64,000 bases of DNA from positions 1,364,001 to 1,428,000 of the forward strand of contig JBCAMK010000020.1 of the NCBI GenBank assembly GCA_038503065.1, written 5' to 3'. The position numbers and the translations under genes are program-made. The notes beneath the pieces are model-generated. The model did not search any database, had not been told where the DNA came from, and saw only the letters and a program-made list of their open reading frames with translations. The DNA is from Paragyromitra xinjiangensis. Lineage: Eukaryota > Ascomycota > Pezizomycetes > Pezizales > Discinaceae. Positions 29,435-51,747 of this stretch are shown piece after piece. Positions within the stretch are counted from its first letter, which is position 1, and every line of letters starts with the position of its first letter.

Positions 29435-30476
29435 TGTAAGACCGGTACTTCGCACCACTACTGAATTCTAAGCGAAGCTTTAGATAGCTCTCTAGACTCT
29501 GTAACTCGACCGGCTACTATCCGTAGCACAATACCCGAGCGCACGTCCTGACAACTTCTTATGAACCGCACAAAGGCAACGATAGTTAAAGCGAGATAAG
29601 GGTCGGGGCTGTTCCGTTGAAAGAACTTTCTCAATAGGAAGGACACGAGCATTGAAGCGCGAAGCTATGCTAAACAACTCGATACGATGGAGAATTTATC
29701 ACGGAACAAAATATGTTGGTAACAAAATAATATTGATAAGGCTCGTTCTTCCTCGATGATGATCGACTCAGAATTGACGTCCAATGCAAGAGTATTTATA
29801 TCCCGTCCTCTTTACTACTATGTGTTCTTTGTAGCTTGGGTCGACGGACTAAACTATCTACTATTACAAATTGAACTAACTCGCTTATCCATTTATCCGA
29901 CATCCTATCGGCGGTTCGATATCTCCAACTTCCGACGCTTACCCCTCGTTCAGTAATCCTCAGATCGCCTTGGTTCGACGTGGCGATGATACGGTTGCGA
30001 CGGTTGCGTTCGCCCGATCGAGTAGGTGGTTACACGATATCGTTTTGTTGCGACAGCTGGTGTTTGGAGCCCCGTAGCGCGGGCAGGAGACCTCTGATGA
30101 CTAATCCGAATAGCCCGCGTGACTCGGCGCCCCAAGTTGCCCTATGAAGACCTCTCATACATACCCTCCGGGTCACATTCCGCGGGAAGGGCGCCGTTGA
30201 CGACCCAGGGGTTACTTTTAGTCTCCGGGACGCGGATATTTTGCGGGTGTCCCCCCTTCTCGATCCAGCGCTGCAGGCAGCGCAAGCGAAGGCAGGGTAA
30301 CGGCCGGGTAACCGGGGAAGGCAGGGTAACTGCCTGGGAATAGGCTGGGAAGTCAATAGGCAGCCACAGAGGAGTCCAACAAAGACAGGAAGGTGACCAA
30401 ATGGAAGGTAGGGTAACTCCCTACGTAGGTAGGGTAACAGGGAGACCACTGCATGCCTATAGCCATAGGTATAACA
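29435..30476. mobile_element. solo LTR (1042 bp) inside the Pogo-like element
   Basis: The sequence begins TGTAAGACCGGTACTTCGCA and ends CCATAGGTATAACA, with TG..CA ends. A 5-bp duplication GTTCC lies on both sides (29430-29434 and 30477-30481). A near-identical inverted copy with its own duplication lies at 49882-50920. The right part contains short repeats of GGTAGGGTAAC and GGCAGGGTAAC. There is no internal retrotransposon sequence, so it is the product of LTR-LTR recombination. Confidence 0.93.
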
Positions 30477-31208: not shown

Positions 31209-31214
31209 GTCAAC

Positions 31215-31261
31215 TATGGCGGCCTATAGCGACCATCCCGCCATAATTCAGAAAGTCAAAT
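31215..31261 (+). repeat. left terminal inverted repeat of the large element
   Basis: It matches the right TIR over about 46 bp with one mismatch near the tip (TATGG against TACGG); similarity ends near GAAAGTCAAA. Confidence 0.9.
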
Positions 31262-31620
31262 TTACCCGAAACCACCCCAAAAAAAATATTTCCCAAAACC
31301 ACCAGTATGATAAATATAATACAGTAGAATACCCCAGGAGTATACTAGGACACATCAGCAAGTGAAATCACACCAAAACTGCCACCGAGATGGCCGAGTG
31401 ATATCCCATGATTCTTGTGTTTGTGATTTTTTTAATTTATGAAGACTGCATCAAAAAATCTGAATAAATCAGGATAAATACTTTAAGATATAACAAGTAG
31501 ATTCCCGCTTTTGTTCATGGGTTTTGAAGGCTTGGCGAAAACGCGATTTGATTTTGAGTGGAGATTGTAAGCTATTATGAAAAAAATACACCTGCTAGAC
31601 CTATACCCCTCTTCTCCTAA

Positions 31621-33119
31621 CTACTCCTCATCCTCTAAAACATATTCCTCACTTTTAATCTCGCCCTGAGCCCCTCCCTTTGCCTTTGCTTTCCCCTTTC
31701 CCAATTTTTTCCCCTCTACTGTGTCTTGAATCAAGTCCAAGTCTAAAACAATGGGTTCAGTAGGAGCATTCTCACAATCACAGGGTTGGTACTTTCTCCC
31801 CTCCTCAATCCAATCCTCGGTAGCAAAGTTCATAGCCTCTGCTAAATTCCAACCACTATTAATACCTGAGTGGTAGGCCCCTGGAAATAGTACCATCATA
31901 TCTCCTTTTTCCTGAGTAAATTGATGACATGGATAGCCACATTTCACCCAATCCTCAGGTGTTAAAGGAGGAGCAGAAAGCACAAAACCCTCATGACGAA
32001 GAGCAGGGGCAGGTGGTTAAGGTGAGTTCTGGTATAGTAGCTACAAAATTATATTAGCAAAAATTAAAAATTAAAATAGGAGATATACCTTTAGCTTGAG
32101 CTACAAATCTATGCATGGAATGACCAGGAATAACATGCCAGATTTTCGGAGCCCCATCCAATAAAGTATTTGCAGAATGACAGTGATAATCTTCCACATG
32201 CCAGGAAAAGGCTGTACCTGGTTGTCCAAAATAGACATAGGGGGTGGTAATACCAGGTATAAAAGTCAGGCCAGGTGTCAGAAGCAGGTTAAACTCGTCA
32301 TCAAATAGAGAGGTCCTGCTTTGCTCCATAGAAACCAAATGGGCTAAAAAATGTTAGTAAAATTAAATATTAAGAAAATTGGTATATCAAGTACTTACTT
32401 TCAATGTCAACCCCATAAAAGCGATTTTGTGAACTCCCTTTCTCCTCCACCTCTTTTGCAACCTGTGCCCAAAACTCCTGCATTGTACCAATGTATTCAA
32501 AATCCTCCTTTTTAACCATATGAGAATGCCAAAGGGACATGGGCTTTTTTTTGGGTAAAAAGGCAACCCTGTAAGCCTTGCTACCATTAGGGGCGTTACA
32601 TTCCAGCTCTTCAAACACCTGTTGCCTAACATCCAACTTGATAGTACTAAGTGGCTTGGAACTGGGTACATGGTACCAGGGATTGCCAGACTCAAGAGGA
32701 GGAAGATGCAACTTTAAAGCTCCATAATGACGTCCAAGTTGTGAAAGGATTTGCAGTAGCTTGGGGAAGTTCTCAAGACCATAGGGGGTGACAGTAATAG
32801 AGGGTGGGTGAAGGGTATTGGGATGGTGAATGGTAGCATATTGAGCAGGAATAAGGTGAAATCTGAATGGCCTGGGAGTGTAGGGATCTGGCAACAAAGT
32901 AGAACTCTGTGCGTCAGGTAGATTGATAGGCAATTTACCTAAGAAATAGTTATTATATGATAAAATTTAATGAAGGTAGAGGGGGGAAATACCAGTAAGA
33001 AGGGCTCTGGAAACCTGATTATATTTCCGCTTTTTTTGGAGTTTGAGGAGATCAGTCCCCTCTTTGACAGGTCTTTCTTTATTTTTGATAGACTGAGGAG
33101 TATAGTTGATAAAACTCAT
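31621..33119 (-). CDS. KDM4-like JmjN/JmjC histone demethylase-type protein carried by the transposon
   Basis: Four exons (32993-33119, 32399-32938, 32089-32343, 31621-32040) would encode about 446 residues of a 2-oxoglutarate/Fe(II) dioxygenase of the histone-lysine demethylase type. A JmjN-like stretch (TPYGLENFPKLLQILSQLG) precedes the JmjC domain: TPYVYFGQPGTAFSWHVED supplies the Fe ligands His and Glu (about 271 and 273), and FPGAYHSGINSGWN the distal His (about 364). The KDM4-type zinc site is also present: a Cys and His in CPALRH, and the CxC in YQPCDCEN. The tail is Lys/Gly-rich then acidic. One extra base in a G4 run near 32006-32009 breaks exon 4; without it the total length is divisible by three and the zinc-site Cys and His fall in frame. 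It is either a pseudogene or a base-call error. Confidence 0.82.
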
Positions 33120-33239
33120 GATGGCAGATGGTGGATGATGATATAAAATTGTGGTTGTGGTTGAGGTTGAACCGAGGGGGAAAAGATAAGGTGGAAAATG
33201 ACAACACATACTCCTCTTTTACTAGATATGGTATGGAGT

Positions 33240-34335
33240 GGCGCATTTTTTTAGTTACCCTACCTACTTTAACCTTATATCCTCACTTACCTAAAAAGGT
33301 AAATGGGGACTTTCACATAGTGGCGGGGTTTTTTTAGTTACCCTACCTTATCTTATTATGCTCATACTACATATTATTTAGCTGGCGGGTTTTTTTTGCA
33401 TTTATTATTAAAGGGCCTACCAGGTGTCCTCATTTACCTAAATAGGTAACTGAGGACTTTTATATAGTGACGGGTTTTTTTTAGTTACCCTACCTTACTT
33501 TAATATGCCCCTGGTATTAATTATTTAGCTGGCGGGTTTTTTTTGTATTTATTATTAAAGGGTCTACTAGGTGTCCTCAGTTACCCAAATAGGTAACTGG
33601 GGACATGTCCATAGTGACAGGTTTTTTTTAGTTACCCTACCTTATCTTATCCTGTTTCTAGTACCTATTATTTAGCTGGCGGGTTTTTTTTGTATTTATT
33701 ATTAAACGATTTATCAGGTGTCCTCAGTTACCCAAATAGGTAACTGGGGAATTACACATAGTGGCGGGTTTTTTTTTAGTTACCCTACTTTATCCCACTA
33801 TGCCACTAGTACCTGTAATTTATCTGGCGGGTTTTTTTGCATTTATTATTAAAGGGTCTACCAGGTCCTCAGTTACCCAAATAGGTAACTGAGGACTTCT
33901 ACCTGCTGGCGGGTTTTTTTAGTTACCCTACCTTACCTTGTCATGCTCTTACTAGATGTAATTAAACTGGCGGGTTTTTTTTAATTAATTATTAAATAGT
34001 TTACTAGTTGTCCCCAGTTGCCCAATTAGGTAACTGATAGCTTTTACATAGTGCAGGGTTTTTTTCTTGTTACCCTACTTTGCTCCAGTACCTATTATTT
34101 AGCTGGCGGGGCTTTTCTCATTTTTGTATAAAATGTCCTCATTTACTTAAATAGGTAACTGGGGACTTGTTAGATTGTAACGAGGTTTTTTTATAGTTAC
34201 CCTACCTTTCCACACATGTCCTCAGTTACTTGAATAGGTAAATGAGGACTTATTACATAGTATCGAGTTTTTTCTCAGTTACCCTACCTTTTTCTACCTG
34301 CCCTCAGTTACTAAATTAGGTAACGGATATCAAAT
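33240..34335. repeat. satellite of about eight 145-bp units, each with a hairpin
   Basis: Each unit contains GGCGGGTTTTTTT, then AGTTACCCTACCTTA, a second GGCGGGTTTTTTTT with a TTTATTATTAAA block, and a near-perfect inverted repeat GTCCTCAGTTACC..GGTAACTGAGGAC around a short CAAATA-like loop. Copies become shorter and more diverged towards 34300. The array fills the whole space between the start of the JmjC gene and the end of the integrase gene. Confidence 0.88.
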
Positions 34336-34365
34336 AAAATAAAATAAATAAACAAAAATTCTACA

Positions 34366-36226
34366 TTAATCCTCTAATCTATTCCCAATATCTTCTGCCA
34401 GCATATTCTCTTCCTCGTGATCTCCTTCGAGCATATCTTCTTCATCAATTTCTAGCATCAAATCCTCCCCAATATTTGATAGTGTCCAATCATAAGCTTG
34501 AGAAGGAACCTCAGAGAGGCTTAAATATCCTCCTTGGTCAAAAAATTCCAGTATAGCTACCCGTAAATGACAATAGGCTTTTAATTGTGGGGATACATTA
34601 ACAGTGCTTGGGCCATAATTATCTTGAGAAGATATCGCTAGCAATGTAGGAAGTTGAATATTTGTTGCTTCTAATTCTTCTTTGCACCATCTTATTGTTT
34701 CAGTTGGTAGGTATTCGTCTGGGTCTATGATTAATTAATTAATTATTTAAAATAACTATAAGCATATAACATGATATTTACCATATCCTTCAAGCTCTTT
34801 TCGTAACTCTGATATCAACTCAACTGGTGGAATCTGGCCATAATCTTTAATTCCCTCTGGTGGTGTATGATACATAACCAGTGGTTTACCAGTTGGTAAA
34901 TAAGTGTGACTGTGTTGGGCTCGAATTCTATGTGCATTCCACAATTTTGCAAACTCATAAATCTCCTGACGAATAATAGGAAGATATACATATAATAATG
35001 CAATTTTACATGGTGCATTATCAGTAAATAGACCTGAATCCCGAAGATGGTCCAAATGAGTCTATTGTTTTCTTAGTTATTGTTTTGCTTATCTTTTTAC
35101 TATGCACTTACCTTCCATGTAATTGTCTGGCTTTTACTCATCTGACGCCACCAACTTTCAATTCGAACATTAAGAGTTGAAGTACCAAACCAATAAACTT
35201 CATTGAATTTGACGTCCGGATCTAGAGCTTGATGTAGCTTCCAATGTGCATTGGCCATCATTGGAGTTTCAGTACCTCTATCAGACCTGATTGCATGGGG
35301 TAAAATGCCTGTATCTTCAATTGCATCAAGATATTAACATAATATGGCGACTGCAGTTCTAGTGGAAATCCCAACATGTATCCAAGTAATAAACCTGGTT
35401 CATGGCCATGTCATTAGTCGAGATTAAAATCTTGGTAAGACAGTGAGTTGGTTACCGTGAATACCCATCAATAGCCGCATAGATCTCGATCCCATACATA
35501 CTCATCTTATGATGACCATCAACTGACCACAGAAAATTTGGGCCAGGTACTGTGTATGTACTACGTGGCGTCTTCTGTAAACCGAAAGGGCGCTGTTGAA
35601 CCCCAGCTGGATCCAACTCGCGTAGGATGGTATACATTCGATCACGGGCTACTGGAAGCCCACTTTGTCTTAAAAACTGATATGAAAGACTTCGGCCATA
35701 AAGCACGCTTTGACCCGATTCAAGTTGCATTTTTAGTGCATGTCTTATAGCTGTATTGTGAGCTGTAAAATTTTGTCTCTCACTATGCCTAAACATGCCA
35801 CATGCAAGTCTAAATCGGATCATTCTATGTGCCATCAGTAATTAAAAAAGTAATGAAAATTGTGGCTTCTTACGTTCTTTTGGTAATTGCTGTGTTATCC
35901 TTGTTGATGAATCCCATGATCTCATCATCATTGAGACCATAGGTGTAAAACAGGACCCACAGACGTTGCATCAATTGATTTTTTTGTACTTCATTAAGTG
36001 GCATATTTTGTTTTTGGAAATCAGAACCCCATGACTGGATTGCTCGCTCTAGTGTGCGCAAAGATGGGTAGTCAGGCCGAGTAGTATTAACGATTTCTGG
36101 ATGATGCTCATGCAAAAGATCCCGTGTTATCTGAAGGGAGTGGTTATCTGCGATATACCAAGACCAAATGACAGTCTTGTAAGGTTCTAAGGAAAATGCT
36201 GGTCGTCCTGCAGGCATGTTGGGCAT
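34366..36226 (-). CDS. rve-type DDE integrase/transposase of the large element, one nonsense codon
   Basis: Five exons (35874-36226, 35456-35824, 35112-35394, 34782-35061, 34366-34724) join in phase to about 547 codons. The N-terminal part is helical and probably DNA binding. The catalytic core resembles retroviral/IS3-type integrases: FLWSVDGHHK (first Asp), AIRSDRGTET (second Asp) and STLNVRIESWW (Glu). The C-terminus is acidic (EIDEEDMLEGDHEEEN). A TAA stands in frame in exon 3 between AVAILC and YLDAIEDTG; a CAA-to-TAA change explains it, so this copy is probably inactive although the rest is open. It would be the enzyme recognising the TAYGGCGG termini. The start at 36226 is the first Met of the open exon. 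Confidence 0.85.
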
Positions 36227-36458
36227 AGATTGAAGTTAGAAAGATGGGTATTATAGAAGGGGCATGGAAAAATATCTTGTTATGATTAAGGGGCCAGCTG
36301 GTCTTTAAATACTTAAATTTTATGACCATCTCCTACTAATCTTCTTCATTAGCAAACATGATCTCCGAGTCCTCCCAGTCTTCTCACTCAAATTTCACAA
36401 TTCCATCAAACTGTCCTTCTTCTTATACTATATCATGTCACAACAAGAATATTGTCCA

Positions 36459-38739
36459 CATCAGCAAAAAAAAAATGTCGCCCCGACACTTTCCTGTCTT
36501 CTGGAAGGCCATATTCCGCCCGCTGAGTTTGTGGCCTTCCCGACCGCCTAGGCGAGCTGCTCCAAGCGCTGGCCTGTGTGGGCGCAACCTGCACACTGCA
36601 CCGACCTCCTGGCGCTCGGCTGCGGCCACCCGCGCCCAGATGTGGTACTTAGCGAAATCCAGCAGGTTGCCTGATTGAATTTTTTTTTTTTCTACAAGTC
36701 CCTGAAAACTCGGGACTTAGCAAAATTCACGTCGCCTCCCCCCAGGCACTTAGCGATTTTCAAAAATCTCCAGGTCGCTTAGTCATCGCTTAGTAGTCGC
36801 CATGCCGTCGCCAAAGCAACGCCTAATAAGACACCAATCTCCACCTCTCCCGTCCTTCCTACTATTGCTTCCCCCTATTCCCTCCCACCCTTCCCCTATT
36901 CCCTCCCACCCATTCTCAACCTCGCTGTACCGCTGACATCGTGACATTTAGGTTCGAAGTAACGAGCTTTGCTTGCAAAGAACCTCCCAGGTAACGTCTT
37001 GATTCCGTTTATTTGACTCCCGCTGATATGCCTCCTAGACTCGCTTCGATCCGCTGCTTCAGCTTCCTCTGCTTCCGCCTAAGCGAGCTCTATATGCTGA
37101 TCGATTCGCTGCTGCAGCCTCGGCTGCCTGAGCTTCTGCCGCCTCCGCCACAGCTGCAGCAGCCTCCGCTGCCTGCGCCATATGGTCGATTCGCTGCCTG
37201 AGCTTCCGCTGCCTCCTGGAGGTCGTCGATTCGCTGCTGCAGCCTCCGCTGCCTGCGCCATATGGTCGATCCGCTTCCTGAGCTTCCGCTGCCTCCTGGA
37301 GGTCGTCGATCTGCTGCCTGAGCTTCCTGAGCTTCCGCCAATTGGTCAATTCGCTGCAGCAGCCTCTGCTGCCTCCTGGAGGTCGTCAATCCGCTGCCCG
37401 AGCTTCCTCCGCCTCCGCCATATGGTCAATTCGCTGCTTGAGCTTCCGCTGCCTCCTGGAGGTCGTCGATCCGCTTCCTGAGCTTCCTCCGCCTCCGCCA
37501 ATTGGTTAATTCGCTGCCTGAGCTTCCGCTGCCTGGGCTTCCGCCGCCTCCTGGAGGTCGTCGATCTGCTGCCTGAGCTTCCTCCGCCTCCGCTATATGG
37601 TTGATTTGCTTCCTGAGCTTCCGCTGCCTGCGCCATATGGTCAATTTGCTGCCTGAGCTTCCGCCGCCTCAGTCAATTGATCGATTTGCTGCAGCAGCCT
37701 CCGCTGCCTGCGCCACATGGTCAATTCGCTGCCTGAGCTTCCGCCGCCTTAGTCAATTGATCGATTTGCTGCTGCAGCCTCCGCTGCCCCCGCCATATGG
37801 TCGATTCGCTGCAGTAGCCTCCGCTGCCTGCGCCATATGGTCGATCCGCTGACTGAGCTTCCGCCGCCTCAGTCAATTGATCGATTTGCTGCAGCAGCCT
37901 CCGCTGCCTGAGCTTCCGCCGCCGCCGCCTCCGCCACAGTTGCAGCAGCTTTTGCTGCCTGCGCCATATGGTCGATCTGCTGTCTGAGCTTCCGCCGCCT
38001 CCGCCACCTCCGCCACAGCTGCAGCAGCTTCCGCTGCCTGCGCCATATGGTCAATTCGCTGCCTGAGCTTCCGCCGCCTCCTGGAGGTCGTCAATTCGCT
38101 GCCTGAGCTTCCTCCGCCTCCGCCAATTGGTCAATTCGCTGCTGCAGCCTCCGCTGCCTGCGCCATATGGTCGATTCGCTGCCTGAGCTTCCGCCGCCTC
38201 AGTCAATTGATTCATTTGCTGCAGCAGCCTCCGCTGCCTGCGCCACATGGTCAATTAGCTGCCTGAGCTTCCGCCGCCTCAGTCAATTGATCGATTTGCT
38301 GCTGCAGCTTCCGCTGCCTGCGCCATATGGTCAATTCGCTGCTGCAGCTTCCGCTGCAGAAGCCTCCGCTCCCCCCTACCCCTAGGATACGAAGAACAGA
38401 TACATGTACATATAGAGCTATATAGAAATAATAGAACAATTGTAAACAAGAATATGGGTGAAAGCATTCAAACTAGACCACAGGGTGACCTGCTGAAAAT
38501 GTGTTTCTGTGGGCGCACTGCTCCCCTCCCGCTGTCCTCCAGACGCTCGTCAACCCTCCGTGGTCGCCCAGAGAATAGCCTCCTGAACCTAGGGCGCCCC
38601 CATGCCGACCTCTAGTAAGCTGTCGCCCAGACGTGAAGGGCAGAATTTACAGCCTGAGGGAGGGCTATATTCCGCCCTGACCGCCTGGGGCGCCTGATGC
38701 ATTGGGCGGACCGGGCGACAATCCGTTTTTTTGCTGATG
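36459..38739. mobile_element. element A: 2.3-kb non-autonomous element with internal minisatellite
   Basis: The ends are inverted: CATCAGCAAAAAAAAAATGT on the left, CATCAGCAAAAAAACGGATT (reverse complement) on the right, both followed by GTCGCCC-type GC-rich sequence. CA is duplicated at 36457-36458 and 38740-38741. Next to each end lies a block with ATATTCCGCCC. The centre is a long minisatellite. Element B (45270-47249) is a related copy in the opposite orientation. No transposase is encoded. Its insertion sits eight codons into the zinc-ribbon gene. Confidence 0.85.
37020..38375. repeat. GC-rich minisatellite of element A
   Basis: About 20-25 units of 50-60 bp are built from modules such as CTGCGCCATATGGTCGATTC, GCTGCCTGAGCTTCCGCCGC and CTCCTGGAGGTCGTCGAT. 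Unit lengths tend to be multiples of three, so long repetitive frames stay open on both strands; the minus-strand frames read RQRIDHMAQAAEA-type peptides. These are best seen as repeat by-products, not genes. Confidence 0.9.
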
Positions 38740-39726
38740 CAGCTTGTACTCATCCTTTATCCCGAAAACCTAGTTCAATTTTTCCCTTTTGTGGTAGCTG
38801 CAGAGTTCAACTTTATAATGATAAAGATGAAAGTCCTGCCATGGTAACTATAGGTACTTCCAGTAGTACATTATCTAATGTAGCTACAACTGCAACTTCT
38901 GTACCACCTACTCCTTATTTTCAGCGCCGTGAATCTTTTGCTCTACTTAAAGCTGGAGGAGCAGTTGAGATAGTTAATGCTGCACGGAAATCTGGTAAAA
39001 GGAATACTGGTTTAGAAATCCGCAACTCTTCACCATCTTTAAGGCAAAATCCTGCCATATCAACTCGATTTATACGTTGCATTCAACTAGTTCATGGCCC
39101 TGTGGGCCAACTGAATATCAACTACCGAAAATTCAAAATAATACCTGGTACTGATTTATGGTATCCTAGTGATACTCTCTTTGATCAAGAGATCTATCCT
39201 GACGAATTTTCTTGGACTCAAGTGCTGTGGAGTATGCTTATTGAAAGCAATCTTACAATATGGAAGGAGTTTACTCGTTATCAATGGAAGATGTTTGGAC
39301 AAGGTATGTATTTGCATCTGTATTTATTTTTTTAATTATTACTATAGTATTCTGACGCCTTTAAACATAGCTGGACCTGTTCCAGATAGATGTCAAATTA
39401 TTTCCAATTGGAATGCACATGCTGGACCCGACTATCTTGGAGATGCCATAGCTCAACCTATCTCCTAACCTGTAGCAACGCGATTTGGAGCCCACACGGG
39501 TGAAGATTTTTAATGAGGTAAATTGAGCCGTGTCTTAAGCACAAGCCCCCCAACAAAGCCGCGTCACTGGGGGCTTAGAATGAATTAGTATATGCTAAAG
39601 ATGAGGTCTATCAAAAGGATTGGCGTTCAGGGGCTTGTTGTTGGGGTAAATAAGTCCCCCAAAGTTTACTCTCCTCCTCCATACAAATCACCCCCCCTTC
39701 ATCAATCCTCACTACAGCACCATACA

Positions 39727-41619
39727 ATGTCCAGCAGAGTTCTTCGTACCCGTTCCCAAGATGTTTCCTATGCCCCCGAACCCCCCGAAACTCCACCTCC
39801 TCCTGCTGTACCCTCTCAGTCAAAATCTCAAGTCCCAAAATCGAAAAAATCGTCGATCACGAAATCTCACTCAGCCTCTCAAAGTCTTCAGTCCACGCTT
39901 CCCACATCAGCGATATTTAATCCCCTGCGTCACACGAAAGCAATGCGTGATGCAGCCAATGTTCTACCACGTAATGTAGCTCAAGCGGACTTTATTGAGC
40001 CTTCTACTATTGTCAACCTATTTTTTACCAACTCCTTAATGCAAGAAATGACAACGAACACCAATCTTTATGCAACGGGAAAGGGAGCAGGAGTAGATGG
40101 AAGAGAGTGGAAGCCAGTAGTGGTAGCCGAAATTAAATGCTGGATTGGCATTTTAATTTATATGGGCGTTACCCGAATGCCTGCTATCGAAGACTATTGG
40201 AAACATGATGGTCTTTATCCAACACACCACATCCGCGATTTTATGAGTTGTACACGATTTCAACAAATACGACGCTACTTCCACGTTGCCCATCCTGATG
40301 CCCCAAAAGAAACAGCTGAAGGACGTCGTTTATGGCACTCCAAGGTTGACCCTATTCTCGATCAACTGAAATCAGCTTCTCAAACTTATCGAAAGCCCTC
40401 CTCCCGTATTTCTATTGACGAAGCGATGATTCGATGTACCGGCCGATCAAAAGATACATACAAAATGCCCAACAAGCCTATTGATCAAGGTTTCAAATTC
40501 CATTGTCTCGCAAATGCCGGCTTTATCCTTGACTTCATTCCAACGTCAAATCAATGTGGTCCTGATCCAATAGCTGCATTTGGTTTTCCCGAAGTAGATG
40601 ATGTCATGAGTATGACAAGTCGTTTGGTATTTGGCCTTGTTCAACGCAACTGTCACTACTCAGGCTGTGACCAAGCCTTTGATGTTTTTCTCGACAACTT
40701 CTACGTCAATTTACCACTATTTTCAGCCTTACGCAAGCGGCTCGGCGTTGGAGCATGTGGTACGGCAAGAACAAACTCCAAAGATTTCCCTTCTGAGCTT
40801 GCAGTTCCCAAAAATGCCAAACTTGACTACCATTTCAAAACCGCGGTAGTAAAAGATGGTGTCGCAGTCATACTATGGATGGATAATGGTCCTGTGTGTG
40901 TAATGACAACAATTCATTTTGTCAAAGGTCGGAAATCTGAGGTGGATGCGTTGCGAAAAAAACCAGGTCCAAAAAGTACCAACGCTGCTGGAATTAAAAG
41001 ATCGGGAGAGACGGTGTGGAAGGTTGGTGAATGGGCTGCAATTATGAAAATTCCTACAGCTATCATGGATTACAACTTTCATATGAATGGGGTTGATCGG
41101 GCTGATTAATTGCGTTCCTACTATGAGGTTCACTTGAAGTCATGGTGAACCTGGTATTCAATTTTCTTTTGGGCTGTCGATACAATTCTGGGAAATTCAT
41201 TTATCATCTACAGCGACCACCCGAAAGCAGAAGAAGGTCTTGAGCACAAAGACTTCCGCATGCGCCTTGCCTGGGAGTATATTCTTGGGTGGACTGGAAG
41301 TGATGGTCAAAGAGTATCAGCGCCGAGCCAGAAGCGAAAAACCATGGAAGAAGCTGGTCTTGCAGCTCCAAAGCGGCAACGATACAAAACAAAAAACACA
41401 TCTGTACCCCCTTACCGAGGCATAGGAGAACATGTACCTGTTTATATAGAAGGTAGACAAGAGTGTGTTCACTGCAAGTGGATAGGTTGGAAGGGAAGAA
41501 GTGGTGGAAGTGTGAAGGTTGGGAGGACTCGCTGGAAATGTGTAACTTGCAACCACCCCCTATGTCTTTCACCTGAGCGCAATTGTTTTGTTACTTTTCA
41601 TTATTCCGATCCTGAGTAG
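39727..41619 (+). pseudogene. piggyBac transposase (DDE_Tnp_1_7) with two nonsense codons
   Basis: The N-terminus is basic and Ser/Pro-rich, followed by the catalytic core: RISIDEAMIRCTGR (first Asp), FDVFLDNFYVN (second Asp) and MDYNFHMNGVDRAD (third Asp region with the family's NxxxGVDxxDQ pattern). A C-terminal cysteine-rich zinc finger follows (CVHCKWIG, then KCVTCNHPLCLSPERNC). The frame is broken by TAA right after GVDRAD, where the family has Gln, and by TGA after LRSYYEVHLKSW. Both are explained by single C-to-T changes (CAA, CGA). The rest is open and otherwise full length, so it is a recently disabled copy. The Met at 39727 (MSSRVLRTRSQ) is a better start than the in-frame Met at 39592. 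Confidence 0.88.
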
Positions 41620-41631
41620 TTTTTGACCATG

Positions 41632-42040
41632 TTTCATGGATGGGGTCAAGTACATGTGCGGTGTTAAGGATTAGTCATTGTATTATTTCGTTGTGTTTCT
41701 TTGTGATTCGGTTGGGTTGCTTCGAATGGATGAGTCATGGAAAGGGGAAGATTGGGTATATAAGCGATGGATTTCCGCGGTTGTGATTGTTCTTTTCTTT
41801 CTTTCCTTAAGCAACGTCTCTTACTTTACTTCTACCATACTGTTATAGAAATACCATCTCTGTTTCTACCTCAGAAACATCATTGTCGCTGCCGCTGTCG
41901 CACTCCAGAATCACTTCGATTCTTACCTCACGTGAGGCCTGTGGAAAACATTGTATTATCATTGTAGCGAAGCCTCTTTCAAGTAGCACTGCTCACCTTT
42001 GGGGATACCGAAGGGCTTGACGAAACCTCGCTCCCTGAGA
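41632..42040 (+). repeat. 5' LTR of the Ty3 element
   Basis: It starts TTTCATGGATGGGGTCAAGT and ends CTCGCTCCCTGAGA. It differs from the 3' LTR by C in place of T at 41765. The ends are not the usual TG..CA, but the flanking CCATG duplication fixes them. Confidence 0.9.
41757..41763 (+). promoter_or_regulatory. TATA box of the 5' LTR promoter
   Basis: TATATAA lies about 125 bp into the LTR at the expected place for the U3 core promoter; the same box is in the 3' LTR at about 49334. Confidence 0.55.
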
Positions 42041-42262
42041 TTACGTTGCTTCCTCATCCACACCCCTCACCATAAGAACACACACTCTATGGGCATTGCA
42101 TCGCGGATTTACCAATCCATCCTTCACCTTTTCCCTTGCACAACTGCCCGAAGAACCCCTGAACCAACGCTAGTTGTACCCGACTGGTTGGACCACGAAT
42201 ACCTAAGGACCAACTCAACACACTCCACCATTTCCAAAATCACCTAAGGAAATATCTTTACC

Positions 42263-43547
42263 ATGTCGGCAGTACCTAACCCCGCGCCCTCCGATGCCCA
42301 AACATCCGCAACTTGGGATTTCCCAACCCAAGACCGTTTCGCCGAACTAGCTGGCACGGATATCGCTAGGCTTTACCAAGATACCCGCGCCTACATCCAT
42401 AGGCTTGAATTACAAATCGAAGCAAGCGACGAAGCCCGTGAACACGCAGAACAAACCCTGGGAACGACCCAAATACAGCTCACCAATGCCAATGCAACCC
42501 TCCAACAAGCCAACCAAACCACTGACCGCTTACGAAGGGAAAGGGATCAAGCTCGCTTGGGAGCACAAAGAGAATCACGTCCCCATTCCCCAGCACCACC
42601 TCCACCCCCTCCATTGGTAAGTCAACACCGGTCAGAAAAAATGCCCGACCCAGAGAAGTTCGATGGGTCTCGCGATAAACTCCCCGGCTTTGTTCTCCAT
42701 TGCCTGTTTATCGGTCAACAACGACCGCTTCACCAACGAGAATAATAAGATTCTCTATACCATCAATCGTTTGGAAGGGGCTGCTCTTGAACAAGTCCGT
42801 CATACTGTCCTCCCTAATGGGACAACCACTTGGACCAACGCCGCCGAACTCATTACTGCCCTGGAAACCGCCTTTGGCGACCCCGACCCAACCGGAACAG
42901 CGAGGAGGGAACTCCACCAACTGAAACAAGGAAAAAGGGAGTTCTCCGCCTACCTAGCAGATTTCCAACGCATCATGGGACGCCTTCAGTATGGGGAAAC
43001 CGCGAAAATGGACGCCTTGGAATATGGGATCTCGGAAGAATTAAAGGAAGCAATGGTTGTTATAGTAGATCCTCCTACCACCTTCAACACCTTCACTTCG
43101 CTCCTCCTTCGGTTAGATAATCGTATCAGGGCCCGCAAGGAGGAGAAGAAAAATACCAACCGAAACAACATGGGACAATTTGTCGCCCCTGCTCCTGCCT
43201 CCTTTACCCCCCATCCTTCCCACACCCCGGGAGGACTGGCCCCCATGGACCTTTCCTTTGGAAGAACCAGCAATATGGATCGCCCTGCACCAGACCAACA
43301 GTTCACCATGATTAACGGACGAAAAAAGCTTTCGGATCTCGAGAAACAGTGGCGTCGGTCCACTGGCAAATGTATGTTTTGCGCGGGAGAAAACCACTCC
43401 TACGCCAACTGCCCCTCAGCGCCAAAAAAACCCGTGATGAGGGGAGCCCTGGTTAATACGGCCCCCGCAGCGTCTTCCTCGTTGGGATCTGGTGATCCAT
43501 TACCTTCTTTCACGGCTGCAGATATTTCCCAGTCTTTAAACTTGTAA
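42263..43547 (+). pseudogene. gag polyprotein of the Ty3 element, one frameshift
   Basis: The frame from MSAVPNPAPSD carries a coiled-coil stretch, then the capsid-like retrotrans_gag region (YLADFQRIMGRLQYGE), then a CCHC zinc knuckle CMFCAGENHSYANC. A shift between overlapping frames near 42690-42720 (around LHC and VNNDRFTNENN) breaks the gene once. It ends with TAA at 43547; pol follows in a separate frame. Confidence 0.8.
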
Positions 43548-45269
43548 AACCAGAGTCGCTATGTGACCCTGCTCTGGTTTCTTTTTCTTCTTCTCTGTCT
43601 GTTTTTTCTATTTCGGGATTTTCGGTATCTGATGTGTGCGTGGAGGATAAATTGGATGGGGAACATTTTGTTATCTCTTGTAATCTTTCAAGTAACAATA
43701 AAACCATACAAACTCACGCACTATTGGACACTGGAGCCTCGGGATTTGCATTCATGGATGAAGAATTTGCGCGTCACCATAATTTCCCCCTTATTCCTCT
43801 CAAAGTTCCTCGCCAACTCGAGGTTATTGATGGCAGGCCCATTTCTTCGGGCGCCATTACTCATCTTGTACATTGCGGGCTTTCTATTCAAGATCATCAG
43901 GAAAAAGCCCCCTTCTTTGTGACACAACTTGGTCACTATCCGCTGGTCCTAGGAATCCCTTGGATGAAGCATCATGACGTTTTCCTACAATTCGCAGCCA
44001 ATAAAGTTACTTTTGGATCCGAACACTGCCGCACTCATTGCGCCCCCACCAAAATTCCGGTCACAACTCACGGCGTTCAACTCTCAAAAGAACTTAAAAT
44101 CCATTTCATCGGAGCTGCAGCTTTTAGCCGGCTAGCTAAGAAACGGACATCCCAGATTTATGCCATTTCCCTGCGTGAAATCAATAAAATCTTAGACAAA
44201 CAAGCCACAAAGGGAGAATGGAAACAACGGATCCCCCTGGAATACCATGAGTTCCTGGACATGTTTGATGAATCCAAAGCCAATGGACTCCCCCCACGCC
44301 GTTCTTATGATCATAAGATACCCCTTCTCGCCGGAAAAGAACCACCCTTCGGGCCTCTCTATGGGATGTCAAGAGAAGAACTCTTGGTATTAAAAGAGTA
44401 TATTGAAGATAACCTTGGAAAAGGGTTTATTCAAGCCAGCTCGTCACCAGCCGAGCCGGTTCTCTTTGTGAAGAAAGCTGATGGATCCCTCCGGTTGTGC
44501 GTGGATTACGCGGATTAAACAGTATCACCATTAAAGATCGCTATACTTCCCCTCATCCGCGAAACCCTGGACCGCCTGGCCAAAGCTAAATGGTATACCA
44601 AGTTGGACCTTCGCATGTTACAATCAAATACGAATGGGAGAAGGGGAAGAATGGAAAACGCCTTCCGTACCCGCTATGGCCTCTACGAGTACAAAGTTAT
44701 GCCCTTTGGACTCACCAACGCACCCTGGCACCTTCCAACGCTTCGTTAACGACTGCCTCACTGAATACCTGGATATTTTCTGTACTGCCTACCTCGATGA
44801 TATCTTAATTTACAGTGATAACCTGGAGGAGCATAAGGAACACGTTAATAAGGTACTTCAAGCTCTGAAACAGCAAGGAATCCTCCTCAAACCTGAGAAA
44901 TGTGAATTTCATACCCAATCAACGAAATATTTGGGATTGATCCTCTCCCCAGATGGCATCAGCATGGATGAGGAAAAGCTAAAGGCCGTAAGAGAGTGGG
45001 GTGTACCAAGATCGGTTAAAGATGTCCAGGCTTTCTTGGGATTTGCGAATTTTTATCGACGATTTATATTCGGATTTTCACGGCTTTCCTCCCCCCTTTC
45101 GGCATTAACAAAAAAGGATACTCCGTTCGAATGGTCCCCTAAGGCGCAGCAAGCTTTTGATGCATTAAAACTTGCTTTCACTACCGCCCCAATCCTCATG
45201 CACTTCGATCCCGATAAGAAAATCTTTGTGGAAACCGACGCTTCTGATTATGTATCAGCTGGTATTTTA

Positions 45270-47249
45270 CATCAGTAAAAATTGATAAAGCCGCCCCGGC
45301 CGCCTGGAGGTCAGGGCGGTCGGGCGGAATGTTACCCTTCTGTTAGGTTGCTGCAGCACCTCGGCGCGCCCGGGAGGCATGGTTTCTAGACCTTTGACCG
45401 CCTGGAGGAGGTCGTTTCCTCCTGTGGCAAGTGGTGTAGTGGGCAGCTTCTGGGCGTGGGTGGCTCCTCGCTGCCGCAGAATTTTGGCAGCAGTTCGCCC
45501 TGTAGAATGGATTTGCACAATATGCTTGTAGGGCCTGGAATATTCGAGAATCACTTGTATGGAACCAATATCATTGACAATTGCTTTATTCTATGTATCT
45601 ACATGTATGTATATATCTATGTACAAATATCGAGGGCGCAGCTATACTAGCTTCTGTGGAAGCTGCAGCAGCGAGTCGACGACCTGCCAGAGGCAGGCAG
45701 CGAATTGACCTATTGGCGCAGGCGCAGGCACAGGCTCAGGCTCAAGCAGCGAATCGACCATATGGCGCAGGCAGCAGAAGCTCAGGCAGCGAATCGACCA
45801 TATGGCGCAGGCAGCAGAAGCTCAGGCAGCGAATCGACCATGTGGCGCAGGCAGCGGAAGCTCAGGCAGCGAATCGACCATATGGCGGAAGCGGCGGAAG
45901 CTGCAGCAGCGAATTGACCATGTGGCGGAGGCGGCGGAAGCTCAGGCAGCGAATCGACCTATTGGCGCAGGCAGCGGAGGCGGCTGCAGCAAATCGACCA
46001 TGTGGCGCAGGCAGCGGAAGCTGCAGCAGCGAATAGACCATATGGCGGAGGCGGAGGAAGCTCAGGCAGCGGATCGACGACCTCCAGGAGGCGGCGGAAG
46101 CTCAGGCAGCGAATCGACCTATTGGCGCAGGCAGCGGAGGCGGCTGCAGCAAATCGACCATGTGGCGCAGGCAGCGGAAGCTGCAGCAGCGAATAGACCA
46201 TATGGCGGAGGCGGAGGAAGCTCAGGCAGCGGATCGACGACCTCCAGGAGGCGGCGGAAGCTCAGGCAGCGAATCGACCTATTGGCGCAGGCAGCGGAGG
46301 CGGCTGCAGCGAATCGATCAATTGGCTGAGGCAGCGGAAGCTCAGGAAGCGGATCGACCATATGGCACAGGCAGCGGAGGCGGCTGCAGCAAATCGACCA
46401 TGTGGCGCAGGCAGCGGAAGCTCAGGCAGCGAATCGACCTATTGGCGCAGGCGCAGGAAGCTCAGGAAGCAGATCGACGACCTCCAGGAGGCGGCGGAAG
46501 CTCAGGAGGCGGCGGAAGCTCAGGCAGCGGATCGACCATATGGCGGAGGCTGCAGAGGCGGAGGCAGCGAATCGATCAGCCAATTGAGCTGCCTCCTGAG
46601 CTCGCTTAGGCAGAAGCAGCGAAGCAGGCAGCCGGCGGAGGCAGAGGAAGCTGAAGCAGTGGATCGAAGCGAGTCTAGGAGGCATATCAGCGGGAACCAT
46701 ATAAACGGGAGTGAGACGTTACCTAGGAGTTTCTTTGCAAACAGAGCTTAGTATTTCGAGCCTAAAAGTCACGATGTTAGCAAAGTCCTATGGCACAGCG
46801 AGGTTGGGAATGGGTGGGAGGGAATAGGGGGAAGCAATAGTAGGAAGGACGGGAGGGAATAGGGGGAGGTGGAGATTGGTGTCTTACTAGGCGTTGCTTT
46901 GGCGACGACTAAGCGACGACTTGGCGACTACAAAGTGATGACTAAGCGACTACATAGTGATGACTAAGCGACCTCCAGATTTTTCGAAATCGCTAAGTGC
47001 CTGGGAGGCGAGTGAAGTGAATTTTGCTAAGTCCCGGGTTTTCAGGGACTTAGAAAAAATTCGATCGAAAATTTGCTAAGTACTCGAGCTGCCGCCCAGC
47101 GCTGCCAGATGGTGGGAGGTCGCCTGGGAAGCGGTACAGGCACCAAGCGGCGCCAGGGGGAAGCACAGCCTGCAGCTAGTTTCGCCCGGGCGCGGCAGGC
47201 GGTCGGGCGGAATATGTACCTACTGGGCGCAATTTTTTTTTTACTGATG
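45270..47249. mobile_element. element B: related copy of element A, opposite orientation, TA target duplication
   Basis: The ends CATCAGTAAAAATTGATAAA and CATCAGTAAAAAAAAAATTG (reverse complement) are followed by GC-rich GGCGGAAT blocks as in element A. TA is duplicated at 45268-45269 and 47250-47251. The right half (46840-47240) is an inverted copy of the 36470-36900 region of element A, including GGCGTTGCTTTGGCGACG. It lies in the RNase H region of the Ty3 element and is therefore the youngest layer of the nest. It encodes no transposase. Confidence 0.88.
45660..46690. repeat. GC-rich minisatellite of element B
   Basis: The same modules as in element A appear reverse-complemented, e.g. GCAGCGAATCGACCATATGG and CTCCAGGAGGCGGCGGAAGC. 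Three plus-strand frames and some minus-strand frames stay open for long distances. Confidence 0.9.
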
Positions 47250-49208
47250 TATCTCAATATGATGATAATGGAGTTTTACACCCGGTAGCCTTCTTTTCAA
47301 AGAAACATTCCCCCGCAGAATGCAACTATGAAATATACGACAAGGAACTACTAGCCATTATTCGCACATTCGAGGAATGGAGACCGGAATTGGAAGGGGC
47401 AGCACATCCCATCTCAGTTATTTCCGACCATAAGAATTTGGAATACTTCATGACCACTAAACAATTAAATCGTCGACAAGCAAGATGGGCTGAGTACCTT
47501 TCACATTTTAATTTCGTTATTACCTATCGACCAGGAAAACAAGGGGGAAAACCGGACGCATTGACAAGGAGATCAGGAGACCTCCCTGAAGAAGGGGATG
47601 AAAGATTCGCACACCAGAGTCAAGTGGTATTAAAAAAGGAAAATCTGGATCCTAAGCTAAGTTTGTTGGCGGGTTCTTTATCAAACGAACCCGCTGAAAT
47701 GGACGCCACCCTATTTTTACTATTTAAAGAAGGATATAAAGCTGACCCATTCCCGGAGAAAATCCTTACAGCATTAGAAAAAGGAGATAGACAATCAAAG
47801 GAAATTTCACTGGCCGAGTGCACTAACAGTAACGGACTCCTCAAGTACCGCCAATGTTTCTTCGTCCCCGATTTCGATCCATTACGCCTTGAAATCCTGA
47901 AGCAATATCACGATACACCGGCAGCAGGGCACTCAGGACGAGAAAAAACTTTCGAGCTGGTATCCAGGATTTCTATTGGCCAAAGATGAGGGAATATATC
48001 GGCCGCTACATCAGGAATTGCCATGTTTGTCAACGAGCAAAGCCAACAACGCAAGGCACGCAAGGAGTTTTACGCCCCCTACCTATTCCGAATAGACCTT
48101 GGGAAGAGTTATCAATGGATTTTGTGACAGGGTTACCGGAATCGGAAGGCTTTGATGCGATAATGGTTATTGTTGATCGATTGTCGAAAATGAGACACTT
48201 AATCCCTTGCAACACCACTGTGAATGCTCGACAAGTGGCTGATTTGTACCTCCTGAATGTCTGGAAAATCCATGGCTTACCCTCCCATATCACTTCCGAC
48301 CGTGGTACACAGTTCACTGCCAAGTTCTGGAAAGAGTTATGCCAACGGCTACAAATTAAGGCCAGGATGTCAACTTCCTTCCACCCAGAAACGGACGGAC
48401 AAACCGAGAGACTCAATGCAGTAATGGAACAGTATCTCCGGTGCTACGTGTCTTATCAGCAAGAAGACTGGGTTAAGTGGTTACCAATCGCGGAGTTCGC
48501 GGCAAACAATCAAGAGTCGGCAAGTACAAAGGTGACACCTTTCTTTGCCAATTACGGTTACCACCCTCGCTTTAACACCTTGATGATGCCAACATCCCGG
48601 GATCCACAAGCCCGCGACGCCAAGGACTTCGCCCAGCGCATGGAAGAACTTCGAAACTTCCTACGAACACAGATCCGGACGGCCCAAGATGTTTATGAAA
48701 TAAGCACCAACAGGCATCGAATCCCAGCCCCAGCCTATCGAGTCGGAGATCAAGTTTTTGTATCTACCAAAAACATACGCACCTCCCGGGCTTCAAAGAA
48801 ATTGGACTGGAAATGGATGGGCCCCTACCCGGTTAAAAGAGTCGTGTCACCCTATGCTTATGAGATTGACCTCCCTTCCTCAGTCAAATACCATTCTGTC
48901 TTTCACGTATCCTTGATAAAGCCAACCGCGACAGACCCCTTGCCGGGACAGATAATTCCACCACCACCTCCGGTACAAGTCAACGATCATGAGGAATACT
49001 ATATTGACGAAATCCTGGATTCGAGGATACAATATGGAAACCTGGAATACTTGGTCAAATGGACGGGCTATGCTCAACCTACCTGGGAGTCGGCAAAGGA
49101 TCATCAAGAAACACAGGCCGTGGAGATTTTTCACCAACGGTATCCCGATAAACTTAATGATACGGTACCTTAGGTTCGCAGGAGCTCACGCTTGAAGGAG
49201 GGGGCTAC

Positions 49209-49617
49209 TTTCATGGATGGGGTCAAGTACATGTGCGGTGTTAAGGATTAGTCATTGTATTATTTCGTTGTGTTTCTTTGTGATTCGGTTGGGTTGCTTC
49301 GAATGGATGAGTCATGGAAAGGGGAAGATTGGGTATATAAGTGATGGATTTCCGCGGTTGTGATTGTTCTTTTCTTTCTTTCCTTAAGCAACGTCTCTTA
49401 CTTTACTTCTACCATACTGTTATAGAAATACCATCTCTGTTTCTACCTCAGAAACATCATTGTCGCTGCCGCTGTCGCACTCCAGAATCACTTCGATTCT
49501 TACCTCACGTGAGGCCTGTGGAAAACATTGTATTATCATTGTAGCGAAGCCTCTTTCAAGTAGCACTGCTCACCTTTGGGGATACCGAAGGGCTTGACGA
49601 AACCTCGCTCCCTGAGA
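49209..49617 (+). repeat. 3' LTR of the Ty3 element
   Basis: It is preceded by a purine tract GAAGGAGGGGGC that suits a polypurine primer site, and matches the 5' LTR except at about one position. It ends CTCCCTGAGA, followed by the CCATG duplication. Confidence 0.9.
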
Positions 49618-49881
49618 CCATGTCTGTACACTCCTAAGTCATGTTCTGGGGTTCTTTTTCTGTTGTTCGTTGTCTTGTTGCTAGTAATAAATTCATACCC
49701 GATTGGGCGCCAATATCGCTACAGGTTAAGAGATAACCCTCCGAAAATTGCTTACAGAGAATTTTCCATACGACTCAACCAACCCTAAAGACAAAAAATT
49801 AGGTCCTCCAATTGTCCCAATCTTATTTGAGTACCGTTTAGATGATGACTCTGAGTCACAACGTGAGAAAGCTAAGATTGT

Positions 49882-50920
49882 TGTTATACCTATGGCTATA
49901 GGCGTGCAGTGGTCTCCCTGTTACCCTACCTACGTAGGGAGTTACCCTACCTTCCATTTGGTCACCTTCCCGTCTTCGTTGGACCCCTCTGTGGCTGCCT
50001 GTTGCAATAATGGCTTCCAGGCAGTTACCCTGCCTTCCCCGGTTACCCGGCCGTTACCCTGCCTTCGCTTGCGCTGCCTGCAGCGCTGGATCGAGAAGGG
50101 GGGACACCCGCAAAATATCCGCGTCCCGGAGACTAAAAGTAACCCTTTGGTCGTCAACGGCGCCCTTCCCGCGGAACGTGACCCGGAGGGTATGTATGAG
50201 AGGTCTTCATAGGGCAACTTGGGGCGCCGAGTCACGTGGGCTATTCGGATTAGTCATCAGAGGTCTCCTGCCCGCGCTACGGGGCTCCAAACACCAGCTG
50301 TCGCAACAAAACGATATCGTGTAACCACCTACTCGATCGGGCGAACGCAACCGTCGCAACTGTATCATCGCCACGTCAAACCGAGGCGATCTGAGGATTA
50401 CTGAACGAGGGGTAAGCGTCGGAAGTTGGAGATATCGGCTTCGCCGATAGGATGTCGGATAAATGGATAAGCGAGTTAGTTCAATTTGTAATAGTAGATA
50501 GTTTAGTCCGTCGACCCAAGCTACAAAGAACACACAGTAGTAAAGAGGACGGGATATAAATACTTCAGACGTGGACGTCAATTCTGAGTCGATCATCATC
50601 GAGGAAGAACGAGCCTTATCAATATTATTTTGTTACCAACATACTTTGTTCCGTGATAAATTCTCCATCGTATCGAGTTGTTTAGCATAGCTTCGCGCTT
50701 CAACACTCGTGTCCTTCCTATTGAGAAAGTTCTTTCAACGGAACAGCCCCGACCCTTATCTCGCTTAAACTATCGTTGCCTTTGTGCGGTTCATAAGAAG
50801 TTGTCAGGACGTGCGCTCGGGTATTGTGCTACGGATAGTAGCCGGTCGAGTTACAGAGTCTAGAGAGCTATCTAAAGCTTCGCTTAGAATTCAGTAGTGG
50901 TGCGAAGTACCGGTCTTACA
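49882..50920. mobile_element. second solo LTR of the same family, inverted
   Basis: It begins TGTTATACCTATGG and ends CCGGTCTTACA, the reverse complement of the copy at 29435-30476, with few differences. ATTGT is duplicated at 49877-49881 and 50921-50925. It interrupts the zinc-ribbon gene of the large element, whose frame continues exactly if the LTR and one ATTGT are left out. Confidence 0.93.
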
Positions 50921-51654
50921 ATTGTTCTCTCTAAAGGACATTTTAAGTCCACCAAAAACTCACATAAGTCAGCATCTGTTGTGAAGTTTTCAACCAATAC
51001 CAATGACAATAGTGGGCAAGTGGAAACTTTTTCTTTAGATAGTACAGATAACGAATCAACAATTCCGGATCCCAGTCCTAATTACACTTCTGGCAATGGG
51101 CCACAATTGATAGAGGATGATCAAAGGACAGATGATACTCAGGTTTTGGAGTCGGAAACTGAAGATAGAAGGAACTTACAAGGGAAAGATACTGTATTGT
51201 CATCGTCTACCCATAATAGAAAGGTAATATATCTTCTGGTTAATCAAATCTAAACTGCATACTAATTTACTTTATCTTTAGCGTTCTTATTCTATTATTA
51301 AGTCACCATCTCCAGTTGAATCAAGGGTGCAATCCTCAGAACACCCTGTCCCTCCTCCTGTGGGTCAGATAGTTAAAAAAACTAGATCTGGAAGATTATT
51401 TTATGTTTCTGGTTGATGGTTTTGGGAAAGTGGTGGGTAGCTTTAGGATATATGGAAAGAGCTTGGAGGGTTTTGGGGGTTTTTTTCTAACTATTAACGT
51501 CTCACTTCATGAATTATCACTTGGGGGTTTTTTCATTGTTATTTTATTTGTATGGGATTTTGTATCATGTGTCATGGTTTTCTAAAGGGCAGTTATTTTT
51601 TTTCTTATTTTGGAAGTGGTTCTGTGATTTTTTTTTTCGGGGGGTGAATTCAAA

Positions 51655-51701
51655 TTTTGACTTTCTGAATTATGGCGGGATGGTCGCTATAGGCCGCCGT
51701 A
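51655..51701 (-). repeat. right terminal inverted repeat of the large element
   Basis: On the minus strand it reads TACGGCGGCCTATAGCGACC and continues through CATAATTCAGAAAGTCAAA, matching the left TIR. GTCAAC follows at 51702-51707. Confidence 0.9.
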
Positions 51702-51747
51702 GTCAACAAACATATGCAAGCTTTCAAAGACTAACCGGCTCAGTTTT

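Follow-up and report, generated by a model that had tools for sequence, protein, structure and literature searches.

What would a fungal DNA transposon gain from carrying a gene for a histone demethylase-type enzyme? The question is raised by a locus of Paragyromitra xinjiangensis in which a JmjC gene and an integrase gene lie together between matching terminal inverted repeats (TIRs). The locus is within a 64-kb stretch of contig JBCAMK010000020.1 (C20:1364001-1428000), which is referred to here as the window and whose own numbering is used for positions given without a contig. Our answer, which we consider fairly probable, is that an IS3EU-like transposon family took up a KDM4-class JmjC gene as a stable third gene, whose product would counter the silencing of the element itself.

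A single transposon with three genes

The initial annotation had taken a pair of matching TIRs and the 6-bp repeat GTCAAC beside them as defining one element, and both the TIR search and our reading of the flanks bore this out. The 20-nucleotide TIR end had just two exact matches in the window, at 31215-31234 (plus strand) and at 51682-51701 (minus strand), and the shuffled window had no match to it at up to three mismatches. End alignment showed that the left TIR (31215-31263, plus strand, beginning TATGGCGGCCTATAGCGACC) and the right TIR (51653-51701, minus strand) were 96% identical across 49 bp. At the left junction the flank ending in AGAGTCAAC meets TATGGCGG, and at the right junction CCGCCGTA meets GTCAACAAAC. 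As these flanks carry GTCAAC on both sides of the element (31209-31214 and 51702-51707), the 6-bp target site duplication is real.

The interval 31215-51701 was therefore read as a single DNA transposon packed with later insertions, with a net content of ~7 kb. Delimited by alignment to a copy on contig C14, the element proper comprised 31215-36458, 38740-39461, 49733-49882 and 50921-51701. It carried three genes: the KDM4-class JmjC gene, an rve/rva_4 integrase (DDE transposase) gene, and a zinc-ribbon gene that we refer to as P2. The C14 comparison, the Pfam matches and a zinc-ribbon motif read by eye agreed with the net content that had been assigned from the window sequence. The exon borders of all three genes were set by GT-AG sites and open frames. 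The window copy was dead in all three, having a 2-bp deletion in JmjC exon 4, a nonsense codon in integrase exon 3 and three insertions in P2.

Copies elsewhere in the genome

Searches of the genome (48.2 Mb, 22 contigs) with the pattern TAYGGMGGCCTATAGCGACC, which also covers the TIR of a sister element described below, gave 38 matches at up to three mismatches, 27 of them exact, versus four for the reversed control. All copy and locus counts given here are lower bounds from this one genome. Full-size copies were found on three contigs: the window copy on C20, one on C14 and one on C18. The C14 copy (C14:1413050-1421133, 8,084 bp) had one insertion and a 7-bp duplication, CTAGAGT, while the C18 copy (C18:1315330-1341059) was swollen by insertions and had the 7-bp duplication CATGATC. 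Identity to the C14 copy outside the tandem array was 98.2-100% per aligned block. Each full-size copy had sequence from all three genes, in the same order and between the same TIRs. The JmjC and integrase genes were open in C14, where P2 was interrupted; in C18, P2 was open, the integrase had a nonsense codon and the JmjC gene was interrupted.

Older remains of the element also retained the JmjC gene. The fragment at C16:1164302 consisted of the JmjC end only (the end of exon 4) and was 90% identical over window positions 31215-32031, and a relic at C16:232.1-233.5 kb held JmjC exons 3 and 4 at ~80% identity beside a decayed TIR. This relic would be useful for dating the capture of the JmjC gene. 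All five of the loci that matched the JmjC-side end beyond the TIR held the gene or part of it. The lone TIR at C20:9846 had no further match to the element, and its end has decayed.

We read the duplications of ten insertions of the TIR family. Three had 6 bp (the window copy, a sister copy and a short element), three had 7 bp (C14, C18 and the second sister copy), and another two short elements had 5 bp; no clear duplication was seen at the remaining two insertions. The 6-bp duplication first noted in the window thus stood for that copy but not as a rule for the family, in which duplications were 5-7 bp. Repeat-induced point mutation was considered as the cause of decay and rejected, as the dinucleotide indices of the element copies showed no sign of it. 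The most common changes in the window integrase were C to T (10 of 23).

The JmjC gene and its product

The JmjC gene lies on the minus strand next to the left TIR and has four exons encoding 447 residues. Exon 1 (32993-33119) has the start codon, exon 2 (32399-32938) the linker and a possible JmjN, exon 3 (32089-32343) the HxE of the Fe triad, and exon 4 (31621-32040) the second Fe-binding His and the zinc ligands; it is in exon 4 that the frame of the window copy is broken. Pfam identified a JmjC domain (E 1.9e-24) and no other domain in the 447-residue protein. In phmmer searches of PDB, KDM4 proteins scored up to 111 bits (E ~1e-30), followed by plant JMJ14 (90 bits, E 1e-24), KDM5 (~85 bits, E ~1e-22) and JARID2 (43 bits, E 2e-10); the top PDB entry was labelled just as a 2-oxoglutarate oxygenase. 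A profile made from four sequences extended the PDB match back through the linker that precedes the JmjC domain.

The catalytic residues were present. H271, E273 and H365 form what we take to be the Fe(II) triad HxE...H, and Y217, N281 and K289 presumably occupy the positions that contact 2-oxoglutarate in KDM4. In addition, C318, H324, C395 and C397 align with the KDM4D chain, and we assume that they are the zinc ligands of the KDM4 type (C-x5-H and CxC). Together with the PDB matches, the retention of these active-site residues upheld the KDM4 likeness that had been proposed for the protein, and the phmmer scores support its predicted membership of the KDM4 class, nearer to KDM4 than to the other JmjC classes. 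The transposon protein resembled KDM4/Rph1 in its JmjC core, HxE...H triad, 2-oxoglutarate residues, C-x5-H and C-x-C zinc site and homologous pre-JmjC linker, but differed in being short, in lacking any other Pfam domain and in having no JmjN detectable by sequence.

The host has JmjC genes of its own. That at C10:1304472 is Rph1/KDM4 (best PDB match RPH1, E 4e-82), and that at C5:754673 is KDM5 as judged by eye. An orphan JmjC gene at C3:2986406 (C3:2984906-2988262) was KDM4-like by PDB match and is neither the KDM4 nor the KDM5 gene of the host. Identity of the transposon protein to the C10, C3 and C5 proteins was 31%, 33% and 35%, respectively, and 36%, 40% and 37% over shorter stretches. 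With identities of just 31-40%, the transposon gene did not derive recently from any of the host JmjC genes that were found.

Relatives were also sought beyond this genome. Searching a protein collection with exon 2 gave 17 candidates, three of which were confirmed as relatives, all in other assemblies (65%, 53% and 56% identity). With the full-length JmjC protein, one match was obtained among 3998 candidates, an Alternaria protein with 31% identity over 35% of the query. Viral contigs gave two and zero pattern matches (JmjC and integrase queries, respectively) and bacterial/archaeal contigs gave 166 (JmjC alignment), none of which was confirmed as a relative.

Selection on the JmjC gene

Comparison with the C16:1164302 fragment over 134 codons gave nine synonymous and eight nonsynonymous differences, with a ratio of nonsynonymous to synonymous divergence (pN/pS) of 0.225 (Fisher p 0.002). 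For the C16:232 kb relic, the corresponding counts over 200 codons were 45 and 57 (pN/pS 0.345, p 9e-9), a value obtained despite the relic's later decay. These ratios against two older fragments indicate past purifying selection on the JmjC gene. Among the young copies, synonymous and nonsynonymous differences in the JmjC gene numbered one and three for the window copy and five and eight for C18; those in the integrase numbered one and 11 for the window copy and five and ten for C18. The substitution pattern of the window integrase looks like that of a dead copy.

Classification and closest known systems

The integrase gene is on the minus strand, with five exons (exon 1, 35874-36217; exon 2, 35456-35824; exon 3, 35112-35394; exon 4, 34782-35061; exon 5, 34366-34724) encoding 544 residues. 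The catalytic residues are D217, D276 and E317, the first D being in exon 2 and the second D and the E in exon 3, where the nonsense codon of the window copy is also found. Pfam matched the protein to PF24764 (E 3.5e-32), PF00665 (E 7e-8) and, weakly and at its N-terminal end, to Clr5 (E 0.024), and gave no match to Integrase_H2C2 (HHCC). Among fungi, the integrase had named relatives in Eurotiomycetes and in the lichen fungus Usnea. P2, on the plus strand, has three exons encoding 418 residues. The zinc-ribbon motif (CPAC...CGSC) was read by eye; the sequence search gave no Pfam match at E ≤ 1. In the window, P2 is split into its first codons (36435-36458), the remainder of exon 1, intron 1 and the start of exon 2 (38740-39461), the middle of exon 2 (49733-49881), and the end of exon 2, intron 2 and exon 3 (50921-51413).

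PMC12730594 describes fungal IS3EU elements as having TIRs of more than 30 bp, termini of the form TAYGG..CCRTA and 6-bp duplications, some of them carrying a TET/JBP dioxygenase. According to PMC10045372, IS3EU transposases have no HHCC motif and a first D at 100-300, with TA..TA ends and a duplication that is usually 6 bp. TATGG or TACGG was present at both ends in all three full copies, in both copies of the sister and in five short elements, in line with the IS3EU-like ends of the initial annotation, and the end of the relic had decayed from the TAYGG form. The integrase likewise shows the IS3EU features: it is an rve-type DDE enzyme with no upstream HHCC and with its first D (D217) within 100-300. 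Based on the lack of an H2C2 match, the D217, D276 and E317 residues and the termini, we call the element IS3EU-like, by comparison with these published descriptions, its 5-7-bp duplications being a little off. Ginger1 and Ginger2, which in PMC10045372 have 4-5-bp duplications and, in Ginger1, an HHCC-type integrase, were rejected, as the full copies here have 6-7 bp (5 bp in two short elements) and no H2C2 match. Compared with IS3EU/GingerRoot as described there, the element shares the TA..TA ends, an rve-type transposase without HHCC and a first D within 100-300, and differs in its 5-7-bp duplications.

The closest known systems appear to be the DNA transposons of the TET+ IS3EU type that Kojima (2025; PMC12730594) describes from rust fungi and Tuber. 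They resemble our element in their TAYGG..CCRTA termini, long TIRs, ~6-bp duplications (5-7 bp in ours) and DDE transposase with an opposed second gene, and also in having as cargo a 2-oxoglutarate- and Fe(II)-dependent dioxygenase that would erase a silencing mark. However, the cargo here is of the JmjC histone-demethylase type rather than TET/JBP, and it sits next to the TIR with the transposase on its other side, whereas in TET+ IS3EU the cargo separates the transposase from the second gene. That second gene differs too: ours is a zinc-ribbon gene with no Pfam match, and that of the rust/Tuber type is an alpha-kinase. Neither a TET/JBP match in the three proteins of the element nor an alpha-kinase in the opposed gene P2 was recognized by Pfam, by sequence at E ≤ 1. 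Both the eraser and its position in the element thus differ from those of TET+ IS3EU. The HarbingerS and MuDR transposons of Phytophthora that carry SET genes (cited in PMC12730594) are also DNA transposons with a gene for a histone-modifying enzyme, although theirs is a methyltransferase, or writer, in other superfamilies and ours is of the demethylase type, or eraser. Among the top-ranked papers listed from open PubMed Central, no title or abstract opening reported a transposon encoding a JmjC protein, Repbase and the subscription literature being outside this search, and JmjC occurs zero times in PMC12730594 and in the passages of PMC10045372 that were examined.

Sister and short elements and the origin of the JmjC gene

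The sister element was found at C18:1468395-1473289 and C7:1808306-1813186, as 4.9-kb copies ~97% identical to one another, with duplications of 6 or 7 bp. Its TIR core matched TACGGCGG... at 19 of 20 positions, and its core genes were in the same opposed arrangement, the integrase being 32-65% identical per block (in the C18 sister copy) and the P2 relative ~26% identical. The sister thus shares the TIR core, transposase, zinc-ribbon gene and opposed arrangement with our element but differs in having no JmjC gene (best match E 0.14) and no tandem array, and in having a short zinc-finger-like open reading frame (ORF) recognized by eye. In the C18 sister copy this third ORF lies at C18:1472654-1473001, near the other end and on the integrase strand, and it suggests that families may vary in the cargo genes they carry.

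Short, non-autonomous elements, 1.2-2.3 kb in length, have the same TIRs, and the five compared had interiors in common with each other but not with the JmjC-carrying element. One pair, C16:214933 and C5:129729, was 99.6-99.9% identical apart from a solo long terminal repeat (LTR) in one; this near-identity points to recent mobility of the TIR family. Other integrase relatives were dispersed in the genome, mostly at 30-57% identity, and none of those listed had a JmjC match within 50 kb, bar a fragment at C14:1431991. That fragment (C14:1431991-1432742) is a diverged piece of integrase, 41-42% identical and with several stops, ~11 kb past the end of the C14 copy, and the JmjC gene near it is the one inside the full C14 copy.

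Before the search, the initial annotation had held that copies lacking the JmjC gene would speak against it. None of the three full-size copies of this family lacked the gene, whereas the sister element (two copies) and the short elements did. Given a sister with nearly the same TIRs and without JmjC, the gene was probably acquired by one family and not by the whole group. The simplest history would be that an element with integrase and P2 genes gained a JmjC gene beside its TIR.

Possible role of the JmjC protein

From these sequence features we infer a demethylase activity and an anti-silencing role for the JmjC protein. The transposase would cut at the TIRs and insert the element with a 5-7-bp duplication, perhaps with the zinc-ribbon protein P2 as its DNA-binding partner, as suggested by their pairing in two families. 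The JmjC protein would remove methyl groups from histone H3 lysine 9 (H3K9), or lysine 36 (H3K36), near the element, and removal of the mark would allow continued expression of the transposase gene and leave the element accessible. The JmjC protein would then play on histones the part that TET/JBP dioxygenases are proposed to play on DNA in other fungal DNA transposons. Host matches to Pre-SET (two) and to C5-DNA-methylase (four, at three places) make a silencing target of H3K9 and DNA methylation likely. Purifying selection on the gene lends support to the proposed role, as does a published parallel within the superfamily, that of TET/JBP, for which Kojima puts forward the same anti-silencing logic as a hypothesis (PMC12730594).

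Several results weigh against this proposal. There was no copy in the assembly with all three genes intact, and the counts among the three young copies were too small to show selection. The protein had initially been described as JmjN/JmjC, of which the JmjC part was confirmed and the JmjN part was not established: Pfam detected no JmjN in the whole protein at E ≤ 1 or in exon 2 at E ≤ 10, and nor did the PDB profile searches. Exon 2 modelled alone had a mean predicted local distance difference test score (pLDDT) of 55 and no usable structure match; the presence of a JmjN there is plausible by position only. The choice of substrate is unreadable because identity to the host JmjC enzymes is 31-40% over the matched stretches. 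Lastly, the search for a chromo-shadow (HP1) protein in the host was silent, as was its control.

Other explanations for the presence of the gene were considered. It is possible, if unlikely, that the JmjC protein serves the element differently, as a non-histone demethylase or hydroxylase, through H3K36 during transcription, or by acting on target-site chromatin and so steering integration. Non-histone hydroxylases are found among JmjC proteins and the divergence from KDM4 is large. Both H3K9 and H3K36 are substrates of the KDM4 family (PMC4949671). However, the KDM4-type zinc site and the inspected Fe and 2-oxoglutarate residues are kept, which favors chromatin derepression, as does the TET/JBP parallel. 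We think it quite unlikely that the gene was captured by chance (transduplication) and is carried without use. Gene capture by fungal DNA transposons does occur, two of the three young copies have a broken JmjC gene and these copies show no significant synonymous excess, but the pN/pS values of 0.23 and 0.35 against the older fragments speak against an idle passenger, as do the presence of the gene in the family already when the 80%-identical relic split off, the open exon fragments at 53-65% identity elsewhere and the absence of a recent host source. That a host JmjC gene merely lies between two TIRs, or that nested elements were misread as one, is very improbable even for a copy as full of nested insertions as that in the window, and we rejected a nested artefact because the same genes, order and TIRs recur on three contigs with a distinct duplication at each.

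The histone mark is, in many fungi, upstream of heterochromatin. If the IS3EU-like family does use its KDM4-class gene against silencing, the arms race would extend to this mark from DNA methylation, which the TET/JBP-carrying fungal transposons already described would erase (PMC12730594). It would also raise a testable question, namely whether a selfish element gains from opening its own chromatin and whether doing so opens host heterochromatin too, and the JmjC protein would be a compact, ready-made demethylase for chromatin work.

The tandem array upstream of the JmjC gene

Upstream of the JmjC start is a tandem array (33240-34330) with units of mostly 145-147 bp. It contains T-tracts, which alternate at ~62 and ~85 bp, and the motifs GTTACCC and GTTACC..GGTAAC; the density of TTACCC is 11 per kb in the array versus 0.4 per kb in the first 20 kb of the window. 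A length of 145-147 bp is that of the nucleosome core, and the array motif resembles the yeast Reb1 site. Based on the unit length and this motif, the array could be a nucleosome-free promoter array. We therefore advance, tentatively and as a possibility short of probable, a fuller proposal: that a fungal IS3EU-like lineage keeps its own KDM4-type demethylase as an anti-silencing gene, retained for so long that the protein sequence of exon 2 has diverged by 35-47% between presumed species, and that this gene would be driven by the array on its promoter side, whose 147-bp units abound in T-tracts and GTTACCC sites.

Insertions in and near the window copy

P2 of the window copy was interrupted by three insertions. 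The first (36459-38739) is Plavaka-like, non-autonomous and minisatellite-rich; its termini are CATCA..TGATG and it is flanked by the 2-bp duplication CA. Such ends with a 2-bp duplication are published for PlavakaB (PMC12730594). It is crowded with 40-bp minisatellite repeats, which are kin to repeats in the Gypsy element at 45626-46605.

The second insertion (39462-49732) is a piggyBac-type element whose termini are CTCYTAACCTGTAGC and whose DDE_Tnp_1_7 gene occupies 39592-41109; its duplication appears to be of 2 bp, AT. The usual piggyBac target duplication is TTAA, and this was not seen at the insertion. A Gypsy LTR retrotransposon of the chromodomain type has in turn inserted into this element.

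The third insertion (49882-50920) is a solo LTR-like repeat with TG..CA ends and the 5-bp duplication ATTGT. A second such repeat, also of ~1.04 kb and with TG..CA ends, lies outside the element at 29435-30476 and has the duplication GTTCC, and the same ~1.04-kb repeat was found in loci L009, L011 and L016.

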